A stretch of DNA of 32,181 bases from Treponema sp. (lineage in GTDB: Bacteria > Spirochaetota > Spirochaetia > Treponematales > Breznakiellaceae). The stretch lies in the NCBI GenBank assembly GCA_031256445.1, contig JAIRQN010000037.1, positions 1 through 32,181 of the forward strand. Direction: 5' to 3'. This document shows, piece by piece, positions 1,197 through 13,343 of this stretch (its first letter is position 1; every line of letters starts with the position of its first letter). The notes under the pieces were generated by a model. It was not told where the DNA came from, did no database searches, and saw only the letters and a program-made list of their open reading frames with translations. The position numbers and the translations under genes are program-made.

Positions 1197-3473
1197 CTAT
1201 TTAGCGGGTTTTTGACCGGCTACAGGAATTGTAACAAAGAACACTATTCCCTTGTCGGTTTCCGAGCGCAGCTTAATGGCGCCGTTCACTTCCTTGACGC
1301 GGTCACGGACAAGATTTAATCCGATACCACGGCCGGCGTGCATTCCTTCCGCATCATCTGCTGTGCTGAATCCCGGCGCGAAAATGGCTTTTAACAGAAC
1401 ATCCTTGTTACCGGCGTCTTCCTTTTTAATCAATTTGCTGGCAAGAGCTTTTTTGCTGATTTTTTTATAATCAAGGCCTCTTCCGTCATCGGTAAGCTTC
1501 ATCTGAATTTGATTATTAACAAGTTTAATCGAAAGTTTAATAATGCCTGTTTCGTTCTTTCCTTTCGCTTTGCGTTCCGCGGGCGATTCAATTCCATGCA
1601 CGACAGAGTTGCGGATTAGCTGCATAAGTATCTCTTTCATGACGCGGCGCGGGCCTTTATCAATCGCCTCAGGCTCAACTTCGCTGGAGGAAAACCTGAT
1701 TTTTTTCTCTATATCCGCGGCTGCCCTGCTCGCTGTTTTGGCAAGCGACTCGATCATAACTTTTACATTCTGCCTTTCTCCGCCGGTTTCTTTGGACGAG
1801 CCGCGGCTGTACGACTGAAGCTTGCCAATTATTACCTTGAAAGTTTCCCTTTCTTCGGAAATCTTTTCAATATCCATCGCAAGGTTAAGCATATCGCTGA
1901 ACGGAACTTCGCCTTCCATTTCGCGTAACTTCTTGATTCTCGATTCAAGGTTATGCACTTTGCCGCCAAAAATGCTTAAGCCAAGAATTACAGCGTTGGA
2001 TTTAATGGCATGCACAGACTGATACACCTTAACAAGCGCCTCGTGGGTTGTAAGAGAGTGGGTTTTTAACACCTTGTCAATGTTCCCGAACTCATATTCC
2101 ATGTCTTCGGTAAAATCGCTGAACACGTCAGGCTCAACCTGAATGAGCTCAAATACAGACTGCATTTCTTCCTGACGCTTGGTTTCTTCTTCAGCAAGGC
2201 GCTGCGCCAGTTCTACCCTGGTAGTTATATCGTAAACCGTTACCAGAAGAAAAACCTCTCCGCGATCCCGTTCTACAGTGGCAAAGGCGCACTGAAACAC
2301 CTTTTTTTCTCCGGTTCTGGCGTTTACATAATGCAGCTCATTCAGGGGATTAATGTCGTCCAGCATCTCCTGATCGTATGAGCGTTCCATTACCATTCCA
2401 AAATAATCTTTTATCGCTTCCAGTTCGTTCGGCGTAACAGATTTTGAAATAATGTCGGTAAACAGTTTCCCGAAAAGATCATTTTCAGATAACATTACCT
2501 CCAGATAGCGCGAATAGTGATCCTGTATCACAAAATTCCTGTCCATAAAGAAAAGGCCAATCTGCATGCTGTCCTTCATGACAGCTATTTCATCGCGCTC
2601 GGCAAGATGGGTCATATCATACAAGCTGATAAGAGTGCCGCCGGAGCCTCCGGGAAGACTGTGCGAGACCGCTTTAAAATACCGTTTTTGCCCCTGAAGG
2701 GAAAATTCCCAGTCTTCGGCGTAACTGTCTTTTTCTTTCAGCATGTTTCCGGCGTAAAGTTTCAGGCTTCTGCCGGGGAAAAGATCGATAAGGGGCCGCC
2801 CCTGTACAAGCGCAGGCTCTTCAATATCGCTGAGCATGGACAGAGCCTTGCTTGCGTAGACAACTTCGTTTCTAGAGTCCACCATGGCGACATAATTTTC
2901 TGTAGTGGACAAAAGATCCCTGAACGAATTCTGGTGTTCAAGAGCTTCATTCAGTGAAATTGTAGCCGCTCTGGTAAGAAAAAGAAGAATTATTTCAGCG
3001 ACAATGTTGATGCCCCATGTTACCAGAACGGCGATCAGCGTAGCGTCATGCCCGAGCAGCGGGGCGCCCCTGAAAATCAGAAAACCGATAACAAGATTCT
3101 GCACGATTATATACGTTACCGATCTATAAAAACCTGAATAAATGCAGCTGATGGCGCAAAGCGCAAGGCAGACAACAAAGTAGTAGGAAGAATTCCAGTG
3201 GCTGAACATCATCAGCGATGTGTAAAAAATCAATAAAATGAAAGGTACGTTAAATGCAAGTTTATAATAATTAATCGCGTTTCTTATCATCGCGATGAGT
3301 ATCACAAGCGTCAGCAGTATAATTAACCCGGCAAAGCCGTCGTTAATTGTCCCGCCCGCCTGCCTGGTCTCCAGAATAAATACAGAACCCAAAACAAGAA
3401 CCAAAAGGATAGAGATAAAATTCGCTACTTGCCTGTTTCTTTTACCCAGAGTCTTGCTGCTTTTTTCAGCCAT
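1197..3473 (-). CDS. Membrane-bound PAS/Hpt/HATPase histidine kinase, CheA-like
   Basis: This 758-residue protein starts with about six hydrophobic segments (roughly residues 17-36, 45-63, 74-90, 97-115, 119-140, 144-168). Two PAS-like regions follow (about 185-290 and 300-420), then a short linker that may be coiled. A histidine phosphotransfer (Hpt) domain covers about 450-545, with the phospho-accepting H488 in HAIKSNA, a CheA P1-type motif. A HATPase domain covers about 605-752: N-box LIRNSVVHGIE (619-629), G1 box DDGRGLD (662-668), GFST (701-704), G2 box GRGIGL (714-719). There is no CheW-like or receiver domain, so it differs from chemotaxis CheA and probably signals from the membrane to the CheY-like protein of the same operon. 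AAGGAAGG precedes the ATG, which follows the upstream gene by 13 bases. It is the last gene of the operon. The ligand is unknown. Confidence 0.88.
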   Translation of the reverse strand: MAEKSSKTLGKRNRQVANFISILLVLVLGSVFILETRQAGGTINDGFAGLIILLTLVILIAMIRNAINYYKLAFNVPFILLIFYTSLMMFSHWNSSYYFVVCLALCAISCIYSGFYRSVTYIIVQNLVIGFLIFRGAPLLGHDATLIAVLVTWGINIVAEIILLFLTRAATISLNEALEHQNSFRDLLSTTENYVAMVDSRNEVVYASKALSMLSDIEEPALVQGRPLIDLFPGRSLKLYAGNMLKEKDSYAEDWEFSLQGQKRYFKAVSHSLPGGSGGTLISLYDMTHLAERDEIAVMKDSMQIGLFFMDRNFVIQDHYSRYLEVMLSENDLFGKLFTDIISKSVTPNELEAIKDYFGMVMERSYDQEMLDDINPLNELHYVNARTGEKKVFQCAFATVERDRGEVFLLVTVYDITTRVELAQRLAEEETKRQEEMQSVFELIQVEPDVFSDFTEDMEYEFGNIDKVLKTHSLTTHEALVKVYQSVHAIKSNAVILGLSIFGGKVHNLESRIKKLREMEGEVPFSDMLNLAMDIEKISEERETFKVIIGKLQSYSRGSSKETGGERQNVKVMIESLAKTASRAAADIEKKIRFSSSEVEPEAIDKGPRRVMKEILMQLIRNSVVHGIESPAERKAKGKNETGIIKLSIKLVNNQIQMKLTDDGRGLDYKKISKKALASKLIKKEDAGNKDVLLKAIFAPGFSTADDAEGMHAGRGIGLNLVRDRVKEVNGAIKLRSETDKGIVFFVTIPVAGQKPAK

Positions 3474-3486
3474 GTTTAAGCCTTCC

Positions 3487-4449
3487 TTAAGCCTTTGCCA
3501 GTACGGCTAACGGGTAAGATAGATCATTTAACGCAACCATCTGCACAGCGCCGGAAACCACGCTTAAACTGATATCGGTATCACGGATATATTCATTATC
3601 CAGCTGAATCCACATCTGCCTGTTTGAATGAATTTTAATTTTCTGCGCCTGAAGAATAACGCAGTTTCTTGGACGCTTTCCGTTTGAATACCGCCTCATG
3701 GTAACCATTGTCCTTAAGGGGTTAGACGCTTTCAAAAGCGCTATATCAAGCATTCCGTCATCAGGAGTGGCGGCCGAGGCTCCTGTCATTTTTCCGTTAT
3801 GATAGGGGCCGTTTGCGATATGGATAAGGCTGTAATTGCCGCTGTAGTCCTGATCATCAATGGTAATAATATAATCCTGTGAAGCGATTTCACTGTCAAA
3901 CGCAGACGCGAAATAGTTAAAAAATGTTACAAACTTTGAAAATAAAATAAAACTGAGCTTGTTCAGGCTGGATTTAATCGCTTTTAATTTTACGGCAGCG
4001 GCGGAATTCACTCCTATGTAACAGGAGTTAAGCGCGTAATTAATTCCCCACTTGATAACGTCAGTAGAAATTGACTGCGCAGGCACAAGAGAAGGTATAT
4101 CCTGAAATAATTGAACGTTTTCTTCCCCAAAAATTCTGAGAAAATTATTGGTCTCGCCATACGGAACCACGGCAAGCTCGGTATTCGGAAAATGCGAAAT
4201 GGCGTTCAGGCAGTCAAACAGAATTTCTTCCCCGCCGACAGCGTAAATCCTGACAATATCGCCGGGTTTCGCTTTATCAACTTCTTCCTGAATAATAACA
4301 ATCGCTTCTCTGCGGTAACGGGAAAACTGAATGGAAAAATCCGGCTTGTCCTGCGTTCTGAAAAACTGCCCTATATTGTCAAGAATGCCGTCCATTTTCC
4401 ACTGTTGACCATAAAAAGATTTAGGATCGAACACGAATACATGTTTCAT
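3487..4449 (-). CDS. Diacylglycerol-kinase-like lipid kinase family protein with degenerate active-site motif
   Basis: This 320-residue protein has the two-domain layout of the diacylglycerol/sphingosine kinase superfamily. The N-terminal half has a nucleotide-loop position at residues 70-84 (AVGGEEILFDCLNAI) and a second loop VPYGETNNFLRIFGE at 95-109. The C-terminal beta-rich half contains NGPYHNGKM and ATPDDGMLDIALL (about 213-239), the usual place of the catalytic acidic residues. The canonical GGDGT is replaced by GGEEI, and the canonical GTxND of the second loop reads GETNN, so catalysis is doubtful. Active members phosphorylate diacylglycerol or related lipids with ATP at the membrane. 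A good AGGAG precedes the ATG, 13 bases after the cheX-like gene. Its place between CheX and a membrane sensor kinase points to a regulatory or lipid-sensing role, which is inference. Confidence 0.75.
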   Translation of the reverse strand: MKHVFVFDPKSFYGQQWKMDGILDNIGQFFRTQDKPDFSIQFSRYRREAIVIIQEEVDKAKPGDIVRIYAVGGEEILFDCLNAISHFPNTELAVVPYGETNNFLRIFGEENVQLFQDIPSLVPAQSISTDVIKWGINYALNSCYIGVNSAAAVKLKAIKSSLNKLSFILFSKFVTFFNYFASAFDSEIASQDYIITIDDQDYSGNYSLIHIANGPYHNGKMTGASAATPDDGMLDIALLKASNPLRTMVTMRRYSNGKRPRNCVILQAQKIKIHSNRQMWIQLDNEYIRDTDISLSVVSGAVQMVALNDLSYPLAVLAKA

Positions 4450-4462
4450 TTATTCTCCTAAT

Positions 4463-4954
4463 CTATTTTTCGTTCTCCAGCTCAATAGCCACCATCAGGT
4501 GAAAGATATCATTTTCATATGCTTTATGCGGAATACATAAAATACGCGTCTGTTTACTGGGCCAGGCGATGGAATGTTCCTTTCCCTTGATAATCGTGGG
4601 AATGGAAATTACAATTCTGTCTCCGTTTGGCACCTTTGGCTTGATGTTTCCGGCGATAATATTGTTTATCTCTCCAATGGCATCAACAACATCAGCGTCA
4701 ATTTCCGTATGCCCTTCGCCGGCAAGCAAATCAGTCAGCTTAATGGCCAGTTCCGCTTTCATGGAAATAATAACAGCCCCGCGGACAATACCGGAAAGCC
4801 CGATAACTGCTGAAATATCCCATTCGAATCCTTTTTCCGGATCGATGAAGTGAGGGTGCCTTGGACTGATCTCCACGCCCACAAACTCCTTAAAGGTATT
4901 AACAGTTACTTCTACAAACGGCTCTACATAATTAGTCAGCTCTACCATATTCAC
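4463..4954 (-). CDS. cheX: CheX-like CheY-phosphate phosphatase
   Basis: This 163-residue protein matches the CheC/CheX/FliY phosphatase fold by its characteristic ExxN signature. E95 and N98 lie in DAIGEINNIIAGN (91-103), the helix that in CheX removes the phosphoryl group from CheY. The surrounding pattern GIVRGAVIISM (55-65) is also typical. CheX family proteins are cytoplasmic and often homodimeric, and have a single ExxN motif, as here. The gene overlaps the stop of the upstream response regulator by 4 bases (ATGA), which implies translational coupling. The natural substrate is the phosphorylated regulator encoded immediately upstream. It could be an accessory CheX not used for chemotaxis, since no cheA, cheW or receptor genes are nearby. 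Confidence 0.85.
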   Translation of the reverse strand: MNMVELTNYVEPFVEVTVNTFKEFVGVEISPRHPHFIDPEKGFEWDISAVIGLSGIVRGAVIISMKAELAIKLTDLLAGEGHTEIDADVVDAIGEINNIIAGNIKPKVPNGDRIVISIPTIIKGKEHSIAWPSKQTRILCIPHKAYENDIFHLMVAIELENEK

Positions 4955-5337
4955 ATCCTGAATAAACGAAGTTTTGCCAATTTCTGCTTGAAAAGATCAA
5001 GCTTAATCGGCTTTGTAATATAATCAGTGGCTCCATTTTTTAACGCTTCAATAACGTTAAATTTTGCAGCTTCGCTGGTTACCATAATTATAGGCAAATC
5101 TCTGTATTGTTCCATTGCTCTGATTTGTTTAAGGAATTCTATACCTGATAATCTGGGCATATTCCAATCAAGAAGGATAAGATCTACTACCTGGGTCTCC
5201 AGAAGCGCAAGCGCCTCTTCCCCATCCTTTGCTTCTATGAAGTTACAGGCGGCTTCTACTCCGGCAAAAACACCTTTTACGGTATTTCTCATAATTCTGG
5301 AATCATCAACAATCATAATTGTGACACCGGCGGGCAT
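4951..5337 (-). CDS. CheY-like single-domain response regulator
   Basis: This 128-residue protein is a stand-alone receiver domain. Phosphorylation-site residues are all present: D11 and D12 (metal binding), D57 in LLDWNMP (phospho-acceptor), T87 in VTSEA, and K109 in ITKP. There is no output domain, so it acts by protein-protein contact, as CheY does. It is the first gene of a four-gene operon; AGGAGGT at 5341-5348 precedes the ATG. The likely phosphodonor is the Hpt/ATPase kinase at the end of the operon and the likely phosphatase is the CheX-like neighbour. Whether it reaches the flagellar motor or a different target cannot be told from sequence. Confidence 0.92.
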   Translation of the reverse strand: MPAGVTIMIVDDSRIMRNTVKGVFAGVEAACNFIEAKDGEEALALLETQVVDLILLDWNMPRLSGIEFLKQIRAMEQYRDLPIIMVTSEAAKFNVIEALKNGATDYITKPIKLDLFKQKLAKLRLFRM

Positions 5338-5456: not shown

Positions 5457-7040
5457 TTAATTCATTTCCAGCCTCCAGTAAACAGAAAAATTCCATTTTT
5501 CGGGAAAATCTGCTGAATTTACCTTGAAATTAAACCTTCCATATTTAAAACGAACCGCTGTACTTAACGAGAAACTCCATTTATCATCTTTTTCAGCAAA
5601 CGCGGTATACCCAAATTTGAATTTTAACAGGAAAACTGCGGGCGACCAGGTTAACTCGCATGTTGTATCAGCGTTATGAAAAACCCATCCGCCGTTTTCC
5701 CCTGATTTTTCCGGAACAGGATAGGGAAACGGTACGCCGTCCGCCATTGTCAGAACATTAACTGAACCTGTCATGTTAATCCCAATCGGACATTTAACAG
5801 GCCATATGGTTGAAATTCCCAAATTCACGGAAAACTCATCGTTTATTTTCGAGGGATTTACGGCATCCCTGCCTGCTGAAAAACCAGTCTTTATAAAGCG
5901 GACAGGGAATGAGGACTGTTTCTTGTTAACCGCCGGAAACCTGTAATAAATGCCCGAAGAACTGCGGTTAAAAGGTTCGCCGGGCGCCGGTCCCCGTAAC
6001 ACAGTGTTCATTCTGAACAATGAGCTGCGTCCTCCTTTCCATTCAACCTTTCCGGCGCTTCTGAAACCTTCGCCGTGATCAGCTCCGTCCCTGTAAACAA
6101 ACCGCTCTCCGGCGCTGTCCGCAGCAAATGAAATGGAAAGCGGTCTTTGAATACGCGCCTTTTTTTTAAATGGCAATAACGGCGTAAAGCAAATGCCAAA
6201 ATTTCCGTAAATATCCATTCCCCAGGCAAAGGTTTCAGACCATGCCCAGTCCGAGCTGACAGACAGGAACGGACTGTAAAAAAGAACTCCAAACGAGTAA
6301 AGATCGAAATCACGTTCAGGAAGCGGCGGCGGATATGAAAACCAGGAGCCGCTGCTTTTTGCGGGAAGCGCCGCGCCGGTGTAGAATGTTTCCAGAAGCA
6401 GGCCGGTTTTCTTTTTTGAAACAATATCAAACCCTCCGGATAAAGAAGGCTTCAGCTCATGCCAGCCGCCGGTATCCGAAAAAGAAACCTGAGCGGACGA
6501 AAAACCTCTCAATTTAGCGTTACGGAAAATATTCATAAAAGGGGTGGACAGGTACAAATACATCTCGTCATCTTTTGAACCGGATGCGGCGGTTTTCAAA
6601 TCGGCCATCAGCGGCTTGTGATTTTCCGCGTAGGGAGGCGAGCGTATCCAGGGATTGCGTATTCGCGCTGAAAGACCGTATTCGTCAAGCACTCCGTAAA
6701 GCAGCCGGGAGCCTGTGGGCTTATGGTAAAACCCGCCGGTGCAGTTAGTGACAGCTTTTTCAGTATCTGCCCACAGTTCATCCCATTTGAACTCATCCTG
6801 CCGGAAAGCGTCAAAGTCAATTTTGCGCCTGTCCAGAACCTGCCCCCGCAGCGTAAGGCCCGGCTGCGGCAGGCTGAACCTTGCCTCAGCGCGGTTATTC
6901 AGAGTAAAAACCGATTCATCGGAGCCGCTTTCCTCCATAGAACCGCTCCATAGCAGCGACCAGTCAGGAAAAGGCTGCTTTTCCGCAAAGAGAAACACGC
7001 CGCCCAAAATTCCGGCGGCAAAAAACAAAAAGTATTTCAT
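5457..7040 (-). CDS. Predicted exported beta-rich protein, possible outer-membrane barrel, unknown family
   Basis: This 527-residue protein begins with a signal peptide (MKYFLFFAAGILGGVFLFA, cleavage probably near FA-EK). The rest is rich in aromatic residues and in short alternating hydrophobic/polar stretches with no long hydrophobic helices, and it ends in strand-like FNFSVYWRLEMN. That pattern suggests an outer-membrane beta-barrel or a large periplasmic beta protein. I do not recognise the family, and the terminal residue is N rather than the usual aromatic. No clear Shine-Dalgarno sequence precedes the ATG, which is preceded by an AT run (CATATATATGT). It lies 119 bases upstream of the CheY operon on the same strand, with a separate ribosome site for that operon, so it is probably a separate transcription unit. 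Confidence 0.6.
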   Translation of the reverse strand: MKYFLFFAAGILGGVFLFAEKQPFPDWSLLWSGSMEESGSDESVFTLNNRAEARFSLPQPGLTLRGQVLDRRKIDFDAFRQDEFKWDELWADTEKAVTNCTGGFYHKPTGSRLLYGVLDEYGLSARIRNPWIRSPPYAENHKPLMADLKTAASGSKDDEMYLYLSTPFMNIFRNAKLRGFSSAQVSFSDTGGWHELKPSLSGGFDIVSKKKTGLLLETFYTGAALPAKSSGSWFSYPPPLPERDFDLYSFGVLFYSPFLSVSSDWAWSETFAWGMDIYGNFGICFTPLLPFKKKARIQRPLSISFAADSAGERFVYRDGADHGEGFRSAGKVEWKGGRSSLFRMNTVLRGPAPGEPFNRSSSGIYYRFPAVNKKQSSFPVRFIKTGFSAGRDAVNPSKINDEFSVNLGISTIWPVKCPIGINMTGSVNVLTMADGVPFPYPVPEKSGENGGWVFHNADTTCELTWSPAVFLLKFKFGYTAFAEKDDKWSFSLSTAVRFKYGRFNFKVNSADFPEKWNFSVYWRLEMN

Positions 7041-7401: not shown

Positions 7402-7441
7402 ATAAAAGTATAGAACATTTTTTAACAACAGGAGAAACATG

Positions 7442-7990
7442 ATGGCATTAAAATATATGCAGGTTGTTAATCCCGTTTATGCAGGAGACATACCTGCTTC
7501 AGAAATGAAGCTGTCTTTTATAAATTATGATTCCGATTCAGCAGAGACAAAAGATATCTCCTCTATTGATGAAGTAATAAAACTTAAAAACGATTCAAAA
7601 ATGTTATGGATAAATGTCAGCGGATTAAAAGACACCGATTCAATCAAGCGTTTGGGTGAATTACTGGATATTCACCCTTTAACGATAGAAGACATTCTGC
7701 AAACAGAACAGCAGGCCAAAATGGAAGTTTTTGACAAATACAGATTTTTATTGGTTAAAACAATTATGCAGAAAAAGAATACTTTTTACCGTTCAAATAC
7801 AGCAAAGAAAAAATTCTTCCTGCCTTTAGGGAAGAACAGGCGCTTTACAACTACGAACGTAAATACAGATGAATTGGTTATTACTCAAGTTGGAATAGTT
7901 ATCATGAAAAACGTTCTTTTGACTTTTCAGGAACTGTCAAGGGGCGCGTTTGAAGGCATAAGAAAAAAAAATAATGGAAAATACCGGTGA
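7442..7990 (+). CDS. corA: CorA-type magnesium/cobalt channel, N-terminal cytoplasmic part (frameshifted)
   Basis: This frame encodes the cytoplasmic funnel domain of a CorA channel: LWINVSGLKDTDSIKRLGELLDIHPLTIEDILQTEQQAKMEVFDKYRFLL and, near its end, VGIVIMKNVLLTFQE are typical. Two adjacent ATGs exist (7439 and 7442); the second is 7 bases from AGGAG and is preferred. The frame leaves the family pattern at FEGIRKKNN and stops at 7990, while the CorA sequence continues in another frame from 7974. The switch coincides with a run of nine adenines at 7963-7971; eight would make the gene continuous. The stretch around residues 112-143 (rich in K, T, N) is also unlike CorA and may be a second, compensated frame disturbance. 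A pseudogene, a sequencing error or slippage-dependent expression are all possible. Confidence 0.75.
   Translation: MALKYMQVVNPVYAGDIPASEMKLSFINYDSDSAETKDISSIDEVIKLKNDSKMLWINVSGLKDTDSIKRLGELLDIHPLTIEDILQTEQQAKMEVFDKYRFLLVKTIMQKKNTFYRSNTAKKKFFLPLGKNRRFTTTNVNTDELVITQVGIVIMKNVLLTFQELSRGAFEGIRKKNNGKYR
7963..7971 (+). other. Nine-adenine run at the corA frame break
   Basis: The run follows ATAAG and precedes TAATGG. Reading across nine As ends in NNGKYR and a stop at 7988-7990; reading across eight As joins IRKK directly to the family sequence IMENTGEIRKMETDYLAY-. Runs of this length are known sites of polymerase slippage, of phase variation, and of sequencing or assembly error. Confidence 0.8.
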
Positions 7991-8567
7991 AATCCGCAAA
8001 ATGGAAACCGATTATCTTGCCTATTTAATCATCGATAAAATCGTCGGCGAATATTTTGACTCTATAAACAATTTGGAAGAACACATAGAAAATCTTGAGG
8101 AGCGCGCAACAAGAACCAGCGATGATACATATATTGAGGAGATACAGAAAACAAAAAAATACCTGCTGTTTGTCAAGAAAGCGATTTTGCCGCTAAAAGA
8201 TAATCTATTGCTTATCTCCCGGCAAGAATCATTTTTCCAAACCGGGGAAATAAAACCATTCTTACAGGACTTAATTGAAAATTTGAATCATGCGGTAACA
8301 CAGGTAGAACATTACCGCGAATGGCTGTCGAGCGTCATGGAAGTAAACTTGTCTGTTTTATCGTATCAGTTAAACAAGGTAATGAAAGTATTGGCGATGA
8401 TTTCCGCCATCTTTATTCCCTTGTCCTTTATCGCTGGAATATACGGCATGAATTTTGAAAATATGCCTGAATTAAGTACCAGCTTTGGGTATTTCATTGT
8501 TCTTGGCATAATGTTTTTGGTCGCGTCTGTTATGATTGTTTTCTTTAAAATTCGCAAGTGGTTCTAA
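7974..8567 (+). CDS. corA: CorA-type channel, C-terminal coiled stalk and pore part (frameshifted)
   Basis: This frame carries the remaining CorA body: IRKMETDYLAYLIIDKIV, the long helical stalk, then two C-terminal transmembrane helices (about residues 138-157 and 170-190) separated by the signature YGMNF (residues 158-162), where GMN is the ion-selectivity motif. The end is short and basic (FFKIRKWF), as usual for the family. An in-frame ATG at 7974 overlaps the upstream frame by 17 bases, but no ribosome site precedes it, so this piece is probably the displaced 3' half of one gene. CorA functions as a pentamer needing both halves in one chain. The stop codon overlaps that of the convergent amrS-like gene. 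Confidence 0.8.
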   Translation: MENTGEIRKMETDYLAYLIIDKIVGEYFDSINNLEEHIENLEERATRTSDDTYIEEIQKTKKYLLFVKKAILPLKDNLLLISRQESFFQTGEIKPFLQDLIENLNHAVTQVEHYREWLSSVMEVNLSVLSYQLNKVMKVLAMISAIFIPLSFIAGIYGMNFENMPELSTSFGYFIVLGIMFLVASVMIVFFKIRKWF

Positions 8568-10873: not shown

Positions 10874-12352
10874 TTAAAACTGGCCAACTGTCCGCTTTAT
10901 TTCTGTTATGCGCCAGTTTTTCTTTTTGTCGCGGTTCAGTTTAAGGTTATCGGTGCGAACGCTGCTGTTTAACTCATTCGGGTACCACAGAATGTAATCG
11001 GCGCGGTAATGTATCCAGTCCTGATCTTCGCTGCCGGAAGTGTTTGTAATGACCAAATCCGTTACGCCGAAAACATCAGGCGCCGGAAGTTCTCCTCCGT
11101 TTTCTTTCCATATCCTTGCCGAAATTATGGAGCCCGATCTTACCTCATGGGCGGCTCTTACCTTGTTAATAACAAATAAATTTGTAGCTGTGTCAATGTC
11201 GCTTTTATCGGCTCCATTAATGCACGCTTCCATAAAAACATGATTGAGCATACTGAACGACTCATAATAAGTTAATATGACCGTAGCGGAATCCATCCCC
11301 GCCGTTGTAGGCATTTCATTGCGGCTTCTTATCATGGTAACAGCGACAAAAACAACAAAGATCAAAGCGATAGCCGCTCCCGCCAAAACAGGCTTATGGC
11401 TCTGGGCAAAACGGGTTGTTTTTACAGAAAAATTCAGGCGTTTCAGGTATCTTTTTTTCTCTTTTTCGAGCTGTCTGGTCTCTTCGGCGGACAATGTATA
11501 AAAAAGCGATGAAACGGCGACTGCCCTGCCTTCTTTATTCATCAGGATTTTTAAAAGGGAACCAAGAATATCCACTCCGCTTTGACTTGTTCTTTTTTTT
11601 GCGACAGGCAGAAGAAGAGCGTTTTGAATCAGCTCGCATATATTCGCGTTAAGCCCCGGAGAGGCAAGGCTCGGAGGCAGAAAGACGCCTTCCCTCATAT
11701 CTTCGTAAATTGTCGCGAGATCGGGATACGGATTCGTTTTATTCAGTATCTTGTACAGCATCGCGCCGGCGCAGAAAGCGGCTGCGTCCATTCCCTTTAA
11801 ATCAGGACATACATAACAGCTGGGGTCGTCATTTTCAGCTATCAGGCAGCGATTGGATAAATTATCAGGTGTAAAGAAAACGCTGCCTTTTGGGTAATCA
11901 GACTCGCTACCACCGGATGCGTCGCTCCTGCCGGATGCGCCGCTTACTGTAACGGAGGTTTCATCAAAATTGGATATAAACGCGGCGCCGGGATGAAGGG
12001 CAGTTTCAGTATCGCCAAGAAGCAGTTTCGCCCTAATCCAGTAAACCACCGACTGCAGCGAATTTTGCAGGGTCTCCTGCAACGACGCCAGGGGCGAACT
12101 ATCCCGCCCGGCTTCGATTAATAGATCGAGCCGGTCTCCTTTAAAAGGCGGCCCCCATACTGTCATGAGGCCTGCGGTATCAGTTACACCAACAGCTTTC
12201 CATTGGGTATTTGAGCCGTCGGGATTAACAATATAACCGGGCTCGGCAAAGCAAGAACCCATTTTTGTCCGCGCGAAAGAACGCGGATCCAGCCCTGTTT
12301 CAAAACAAATTACAGGTTTTCCGTCCAGTTCAGAAAGATGTATTCGTTGCAT
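10874..12352 (-). CDS. Single-pass membrane protein with degenerate kinase-like region, linked to hflKC
   Basis: This 492-residue model starts at the ATG at 12352, preceded by AGAGG and 16 bases from hflC; an in-frame extension into hflC to 12562 is rejected. The cytoplasmic part (1-320) begins MQRIHLSELDGKPVICFETG. The segment at about 188-250 (MDAAAFCAGAMLYKILNKTNPYPD, then MREGVFLPP, then ICELIQNALL) resembles the lower part of a eukaryotic-type Ser/Thr kinase C-lobe. HRD and DFG catalytic motifs are not visible, so it looks like a pseudokinase remnant. One transmembrane helix spans about 321-341. The C-terminal part (342-492) has a mixed alpha/beta look and would lie outside the cytoplasm. 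Function is unknown. Co-transcription with HflK/HflC suggests membrane-protein quality control or signalling. Confidence 0.65.
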   Translation of the reverse strand: MQRIHLSELDGKPVICFETGLDPRSFARTKMGSCFAEPGYIVNPDGSNTQWKAVGVTDTAGLMTVWGPPFKGDRLDLLIEAGRDSSPLASLQETLQNSLQSVVYWIRAKLLLGDTETALHPGAAFISNFDETSVTVSGASGRSDASGGSESDYPKGSVFFTPDNLSNRCLIAENDDPSCYVCPDLKGMDAAAFCAGAMLYKILNKTNPYPDLATIYEDMREGVFLPPSLASPGLNANICELIQNALLLPVAKKRTSQSGVDILGSLLKILMNKEGRAVAVSSLFYTLSAEETRQLEKEKKRYLKRLNFSVKTTRFAQSHKPVLAGAAIALIFVVFVAVTMIRSRNEMPTTAGMDSATVILTYYESFSMLNHVFMEACINGADKSDIDTATNLFVINKVRAAHEVRSGSIISARIWKENGGELPAPDVFGVTDLVITNTSGSEDQDWIHYRADYILWYPNELNSSVRTDNLKLNRDKKKNWRITEIKRTVGQF

Positions 12353-12368
12353 GATCAACCTCTGTGCA

Positions 12369-13343
12369 TTACCTTGGTGAATACAGATAACGGAAATATT
12401 CCATATCCGTAGTAAGGGTCTTTTCAAATTTGGGCATGGTTTGCCGGTACGATTCAATCGCTCTCCAGAAATCAAAGAAACCCCTGTCGCGGTTATACGC
12501 GTCTGCATAAACCCTTGTAGCTTCGGCATCGGCCCTTCCGCGGATGGTCTCCGCCTGCTCATAAGCGGCTGACAATATGGAGCGTTTGTCGTTATCCATT
12601 TTACCGAGCCATTCCGCCTTGCGGCCTTCGCCCTGTGAACGGAACGCCATCGCTATCTGATTGCGTTCCCTGATCATACGGGCATAGACGCTCGGCGTAA
12701 GTTCGTTGGAGTAACTGATCTGCCGGGTAACAACGTCAATAAGCACAATGCCGTATTCGGGAACCATACGCGCCGAGCGGGCAAGTATCTCTTCGGCAAG
12801 CCTGCGCCGGCCGCGCGTAATCGGCTCATGATTCGAAACAGTCTGCACTGTCGAAGTGATTATATCGGTGTCAATTTCTCCAAGACCGAGAGTGTCTATG
12901 TCTGTGGAACGTTCCATAATGATATTTGAATTGCGCACCGATTCAATCAGCGGATTTTCGGCTACTACAGTGCGGACTTCCGAGTCGATAATTTCGGCAA
13001 GTTTTGAATAAGCCGCGTCTACTGTATTAATGGACTCGTAAAATTTCTGCGGATCGGCAATGCGCCAGCGCGCCACAACATCGACAAAGATGAACTGCCT
13101 TTCGGCCGTTGGCACAATACGCGCCTCTCCGTCCCATGACATGATTTTTTTCGGATAACGGATAACTTCATCAATAAAGGGTATTTTCAATTTAAGACCG
13201 GCGGTGGTGATAACTCTTGTTATCCGTCCGAACTGCACGATTACAGCCTGCTCGCCTTCGTTAACGACATACAGGGGCCCTGCCACCACAACGCCGATAA
13301 AAATTACAATTATTATTACAGCGGTAGTTACTATTTTTTTCAT
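12369..13343 (-). CDS. hflC: HflC, SPFH/band-7 membrane protease modulator
   Basis: This 324-residue protein has an N-terminal membrane anchor (about residues 4-24) followed by a band-7/SPFH domain beginning YVVNEGEQAVIVQFGRITRVI and a long charged helical region near AAYEQAETIRGRADAEATRVYADAY, typical of HflC. In bacteria HflC and HflK form a large membrane cage around the FtsH protease and modulate its access to substrates. The ATG overlaps the hflK stop by one base (TAATG), which implies translational coupling. No ftsH gene is in the window. The assignment HflC versus HflK follows gene order and the QAETIRGRADAEA segment. Confidence 0.92.
   Translation of the reverse strand: MKKIVTTAVIIIVIFIGVVVAGPLYVVNEGEQAVIVQFGRITRVITTAGLKLKIPFIDEVIRYPKKIMSWDGEARIVPTAERQFIFVDVVARWRIADPQKFYESINTVDAAYSKLAEIIDSEVRTVVAENPLIESVRNSNIIMERSTDIDTLGLGEIDTDIITSTVQTVSNHEPITRGRRRLAEEILARSARMVPEYGIVLIDVVTRQISYSNELTPSVYARMIRERNQIAMAFRSQGEGRKAEWLGKMDNDKRSILSAAYEQAETIRGRADAEATRVYADAYNRDRGFFDFWRAIESYRQTMPKFEKTLTTDMEYFRYLYSPR

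Follow-up and report, generated by a model that had tools for sequence, protein, structure and literature searches.

A conserved CheY-CheX-DGK-fold-sensor kinase operon of termite-gut treponemes and a wider DGK-like family linked to two-component genes

Diacylglycerol signalling based on diacylglycerol kinases (DGKs) is a eukaryotic theme, and the bacterial YegS and DgkB enzymes are treated as agents of lipid housekeeping. The YegS/DgkB kinases are marked by a GGDG(T) nucleotide loop. In a bacterial ceramide kinase GGDG has been described as the ATP-binding motif (PMC10331486); a GGDG mutant of DGK-alpha is kinase-dead and still binds Src (PMC4259432), and the G82D form of human SphK1 is catalytically inactive (PMC7599897). 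Here we describe an operon in which a protein of this fold, with a degenerate loop, is encoded between chemotaxis-type genes and the gene for a membrane sensor kinase.

The operon lies in a window of 32,181 nucleotides (the whole stretch of DNA analysed) from a Treponema sp. and reads on the minus strand, from 5337 to 1197, in the order cheY, cheX, a gene of the DGK/YegS fold and a gene for a 6TM-PAS-PAS-Hpt-HATPase kinase (Table 1). All four tightly packed genes noted in a preliminary description of the locus were recovered as open reading frames, and its naming of a receiver, a CheX phosphatase and a DGK fold was matched by Pfam. The receiver and cheX genes overlap by 4 bases, while the other two intergenic gaps are of 13 bases each. 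A promoter scan returned 12 matches against 9.9 expected, which is not above chance. Upstream of the receiver gene lies a gene for a 527-aa outer-membrane-like protein (window 5457-7040, minus strand) without a Pfam match. Elsewhere in the window, a CorA-like magnesium transporter (7439-8567, plus strand) is represented by two overlapping open reading frames in different frames (7439-7990 and 7974-8567), which suggests a frameshift or an assembly error. On the minus strand (10874-13343), the frame at 10874-12562 overlaps an HflC-like frame (12369-13343) by about 190 bases, which points to a frameshift or to a start listed too far upstream for the first of the two.

Table 1. Features of the operon, in window coordinates
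Feature	Coordinates	Strand	Evidence
Stand-alone CheY-like receiver, 128 aa	4951..5337	-	Pfam Response_reg 1.3e-29; D11/D12, D57, T87, Y106, K109
CheX-type CheY-P phosphatase, 163 aa, GTG start	4463..4954	-	Pfam CheX (PF13690) 9.5e-23; ExxN in GEINN, residues 94-98
Diacylglycerol-kinase/YegS-fold protein, 320 aa	3487..4449	-	Pfam YegS_C 6.6e-11, DAGK_cat 3.3e-5; degenerate loop G72-G73-E74-E75-I76
GGEE codons (DGK-like residues 72-75), degenerate GGDG site	4225..4236	-	Translation; alignment to DgkB and Bacillus DGK
Membrane sensor kinase, 758 aa: 6 TM, two PAS-like, Hpt (H488), CheA-like HATPase, no CheW	1197..3473	-	Pfam/NCBIfam, model

Pfam recognizes HATPase_c (2.7e-12) and PAS_4 (4.7e-5) in the kinase, and the same search found no CheW domain, the C-terminal (P5) element of CheA. 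The Pfam score for Hpt is only 0.026, below the family cut-off, and the assignment of this domain rests on the motif SVHAIKSNAVILG with H488, together with a structural model that places helices at residues 448-556, the Hpt region, and six TM helices at the N-terminus; the model, of low global confidence (pTM 0.33), was used for secondary structure only. H488 is invariant in 24 aligned kinases, as are the D662/G664/G666 (DDGxG) and G714/G716 (GxG) boxes. Taking Hpt by motif and model, the protein has both the phospho-accepting His and the ATP-binding domain of a histidine kinase. The NCBIfam family CheA_Halo gives a local match at 1.8e-33 (residues 576-752) that is far below its full-length cut-off; this local match and the Hpt motif together provide the Hpt and CheA-type HATPase of CheA. 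The earlier picture of a six-helix sensor with Hpt and HATPase domains and without CheW is thereby borne out by the modelled TM helices, the HATPase_c match, the invariant H488 and the absent CheW match. The small receiver has the complete phosphorylation pocket of two-component receivers (D11/D12, D57, T87 and K109), and CheX has the fold and catalytic pair of the CheX phosphatases, its ExxN motif (GEINN) being kept in nearly all homologues.

Most of the 36 same-genus genomes searched contain a match to the DGK-like protein, and the CheY-CheX-DGK-kinase order was found in about 26 same-genus loci, with the outer-membrane-like gene again ahead of the block in most cases; the 527-aa protein is 42-57% identical across most same-genus loci. 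Across several genera, some 40 genomes of termite-gut treponemes share the order, at identities as low as 39%, and it recurs in further treponeme MAGs. Its retention in close and distant relatives alike indicates that the arrangement is more than chance, and the neighbourhood check showed the four genes staying together as a block, with no scattering seen in relatives. A scan of named genomes gave 80 loci, and within the family of the window genome a DGK-like match (E 1e-20 or better) occurs in 102 of 200 genomes and 34 of 57 genera. Two genomes of this family are, we presume, the cultured Treponema primitia ZAS-2 and T. azotonutricium ZAS-9; two apparently cultured termite treponemes have members of the DGK-like family, making it experimentally testable. 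The WQ... contigs lie within the accession range of 589 MAGs from the higher-termite gut and carry the sample codes of that study, where Co191, Emb289, Nc150, Nt197 and Lab288 are host codes (PMC7024585); the JAI... records also look like termite-gut MAGs. In some operons a second, tandem sensor kinase stands behind the first (751 and 756 aa at L112:7343-11883, plus strand; 757 and 800 aa in L078).

The reading that we favour, with a probability of about 0.55, is that the operon encodes a dedicated relay in which the DGK-fold protein serves the receiver and/or the sensor, as partner or output, without catalytic activity. Computed here are a single conserved operon with intact relay residues, a kinase-dead motif in a protein that folds well and is under selection, and linkage or fusion to receiver (REC) domains throughout the family; the route of phosphotransfer, the lack of ATP binding, the partner bound, the signal and the eventual output we infer as follows. 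The 6TM-PAS-PAS kinase would sense a membrane or cytoplasmic cue and autophosphorylate its Hpt at H488, from where the phosphoryl group would pass to D57 of the small receiver; CheX would dephosphorylate the receiver and thereby determine how long the signal lasts. The ancestry of the DGK-fold protein would lie in a family of lipid kinases, probably active ones, that work with receivers and 6TM kinases as their partners or output domains; in the window's genus the protein would have lost the ATP loop and act without catalysis. Most likely membrane-associated, it may bind the receiver and/or the 6TM sensor, and would either convert receiver phosphorylation to an output or feed back on the sensor.

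A wider DGK-like family tied to two-component genes, which spans several phyla and includes REC-DGK fusions, was missed by the preliminary description. Among 61 distinct DGK-like proteins without CheX, 51 are fused to a REC, 6TM-sensor or HATPase gene or encoded no more than 300 bases from one, and several of the unlinked exceptions lie close to the end of a contig or within tandem arrays of DGK genes. As a rough control, with flanks of only about 1.5 kb, a REC gene was seen beside one of 17 ordinary YegS/DgkB-type spirochaete genes. The usual order in the loci without CheX is REC, DGK and then a 6TM-PAS-HisKA-HATPase-REC-Hpt hybrid kinase. All the CheX-linked DGK proteins form a single clade (SH-aLRT 99, one origin) nested among the hybrid-kinase-linked DGK proteins. 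In one locus labelled Deltaproteobacteria (L137:941-4615, plus strand), three tandem DGK-like genes follow the receiver gene.

The contig labels of the family comprise Treponema, Azoarcus/Betaproteobacteria, Deltaproteobacteria (placed in Myxococcota) and several Clostridia, and the MAG labels of the linked members without CheX are Spirochaetota, Bacillota, Betaproteobacteria and Deltaproteobacteria; in the proteobacterial phyla the survey covered termite bacteria. The Azoarcus copies and most of the Deltaproteobacteria copies form clades of their own across independent samples, which argues against simple misbinning, while single cases that fall among treponeme sequences, such as L113 or L138, may be misbinned. 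We also considered whether the linkage merely reflects common descent within one genus; this is ruled out by its presence in other genera and other phyla and by the fusions.

The position of the DGK domain bears on whether it lies downstream or upstream in the relay. Two fusions confirmed by Pfam, REC-DGK (L230, 545 aa) and HisKA-HATPase-REC-DGK (L229, 1106 aa), put the DGK where response regulators carry their outputs, which favours an output role. The DGK gene also adjoins the 6TM-kinase gene in 43 of 43 CheX loci and in 39 of the 61 others, often with overlapping ends, and this closeness would also be compatible with an input role. A 6TM profile built from the CheX-type kinases alone matches the hybrid kinases at 7e-26 to 1e-4, so that the sensor and its DGK partner are constant while the kinase core differs. 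Both the adjacency and the retention of the 6TM sensor where the core changes would suit a DGK-fold protein that acts as a soluble co-sensor, binding a lipid or nucleotide and regulating the 6TM kinase, with the receiver's output lying elsewhere. We consider this the less probable arrangement, at roughly one chance in four in our judgement, as in the fusions the DGK is attached to REC, where an output domain would stand, and not to the 6TM domain.

The genome's own CheA-CheW-CheX genes lie on contig C77 (L233, G000:C77:5000-15000), and all five places with CheW are on contigs other than that of the operon. The C77 cluster has no CheY after CheX, unlike the treponemal order in which CheY stands beside CheX. 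The window receiver was accordingly considered as the organism's chemotaxis CheY; this is ruled out by C105, which encodes a CheY of chemotaxis type that shares 69% identity with its treponemal counterpart. Compared with the chemotaxis proteins of a treponeme, the window receiver shares about 29% identity with CheY, and the window CheX about 25% with its namesake. The chemotaxis system has its genes elsewhere, and the operon is distinct from it. With its conserved block, its intact phosphotransfer residues and its separation from the chemotaxis genes, it appears from sequence to be the self-contained unit that had been proposed. About 75 receiver-domain matches in the 2.8 Mb genome point to a rich signalling set.

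It is nevertheless conceivable that the receiver serves as an extra CheY at the flagellar switch, with the DGK-fold protein modulating the kinase. FliM is present in the genome, CheX is a chemotaxis-type phosphatase, and the receiver retains T87, Y106 and K109 and is 86-95% identical across most same-genus genomes and species. In the same-genus comparison it is far more conserved than the DGK-like protein, so that its main target may be elsewhere, for example at the motor. We regard such a second motor input as improbable, given that a separate chemotaxis CheY exists, from whose treponemal form the receiver differs so widely, and that motility genes are absent from the operon.

The favoured non-catalytic role of the DGK-fold protein turns on its nucleotide loop. 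Its structural model is confident (pLDDT 91.8, pTM 0.87), and the closest folds, YegS (2bon, Z 27.1), DgkB (2qv7, Z 25.2) and SphK1, identify it as a two-domain DGK. In alignments, window residues 72-76 (GGEEI) fall opposite GGDGT of DgkB and opposite the matching loop of Bacillus anthracis DGK structures; the window copy thus lacks the GGDG(T) loop of the YegS/DgkB kinases. Among the CheX-linked copies, 13 of 43 have GGDGI/M, and the remaining 30, the window copy included, have lost the second Gly (GGEEI in 22, GGEEV in two, GGDEI in two, and others); in the wider family GGDGI is usual (49 of 57 readable copies). D231 and D284 in the active-site region are invariant and E286 nearly so, and residual binding of nucleotide or lipid, or an unusual catalysis, is therefore possible. 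For ten close pairs the dN/dS of the DGK gene is 0.05-0.19, similar to that of the neighbouring genes and indicative of purifying selection. These values and the intact modelled fold rule out a decaying pseudogene.

A functional lipid kinase under the control of the receiver, yielding a phospholipid second messenger or membrane remodelling, would be in keeping with the YegS/DgkB/SphK1 fold, and is plausible for the GGDG-bearing copies that make up most of the wider family and the minority of the CheX-linked clade. The window copy has Glu in place of both the acid and the second Gly, and a change of the same Gly to Asp inactivates SphK1, whose residue 82 we take to be the second glycine of its GGDG motif. 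Judged by this degenerate loop, the window copy is unlikely to be an active lipid kinase, and for it we hold this explanation to be quite improbable. Of the earlier suggestion that a lipid-binding or lipid-modifying protein takes part, the modifying half is consequently doubtful for the window copy, which may still bind lipid or have a structural role. Finally, operons can contain unrelated genes, but a housekeeping lipid kinase that simply shares a transcript with a two-component system is very hard to reconcile with linkage across genera and phyla, REC-DGK fusions and a lost kinase motif.

The dedicated relay with a non-catalytic DGK-fold partner may belong to a broader pattern. We tentatively propose, at somewhat less than even odds, that termite-gut bacteria of several phyla share an undescribed module of REC, DGK-like protein and 6TM-PAS kinase, with the DGK-fold protein as its permanent partner or output domain, and that one treponeme lineage made this protein a catalysis-free effector in a CheX-regulated relay. 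If so, a pseudo-lipid-kinase would serve as a bacterial response-regulator output. More generally, a DGK family tied to receivers and sensor kinases by operon and by fusion would represent a response-regulator output of a new kind, and its distribution suggests a signal common to unrelated termite-gut bacteria. The lineage with a decaying kinase motif in an intact operon is a natural experiment on catalytic versus binding roles. The statement that no system of this composition is known still stands within the open-licence literature, where we found no description of such a pairing of DGK and two-component genes, an absence that is itself weak evidence.

Compared with described systems, the operon has in common with the treponemal CheA-CheW-CheX-CheY operon a CheY-type receiver, CheX, and Hpt plus a CheA-like HATPase; its kinase differs from the chemotaxis CheA in being membrane-bound, in having PAS domains and in being without CheW. 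The DGK-like protein shares with the soluble lipid kinases YegS/DgkB/BmrU (PF00781 + PF19279) the full-length two-domain fold and conserved acidic residues of the C-terminal domain, yet it is only 14-23% identical to them, has GGEEI for GGDGT and sits conserved in a phosphorelay operon. Human AGK in the TIM22 complex (7cgp_B, Z 20.8 to the DGK-like model) is likewise a DGK-fold protein in a membrane complex, and its role there is independent of its kinase activity; being eukaryotic, engaged in protein import and endowed with a separate active kinase function, it provides an analogy only. The REC, DGK-like, 6TM hybrid kinase loci of termite-gut bacteria share with the window operon a homologous DGK-like protein, the 6TM-PAS sensor and an adjacent REC gene, while differing in a hybrid HisKA-HATPase-REC-Hpt kinase in place of Hpt-HATPase, in the absence of CheX and in a mostly intact GGDG.
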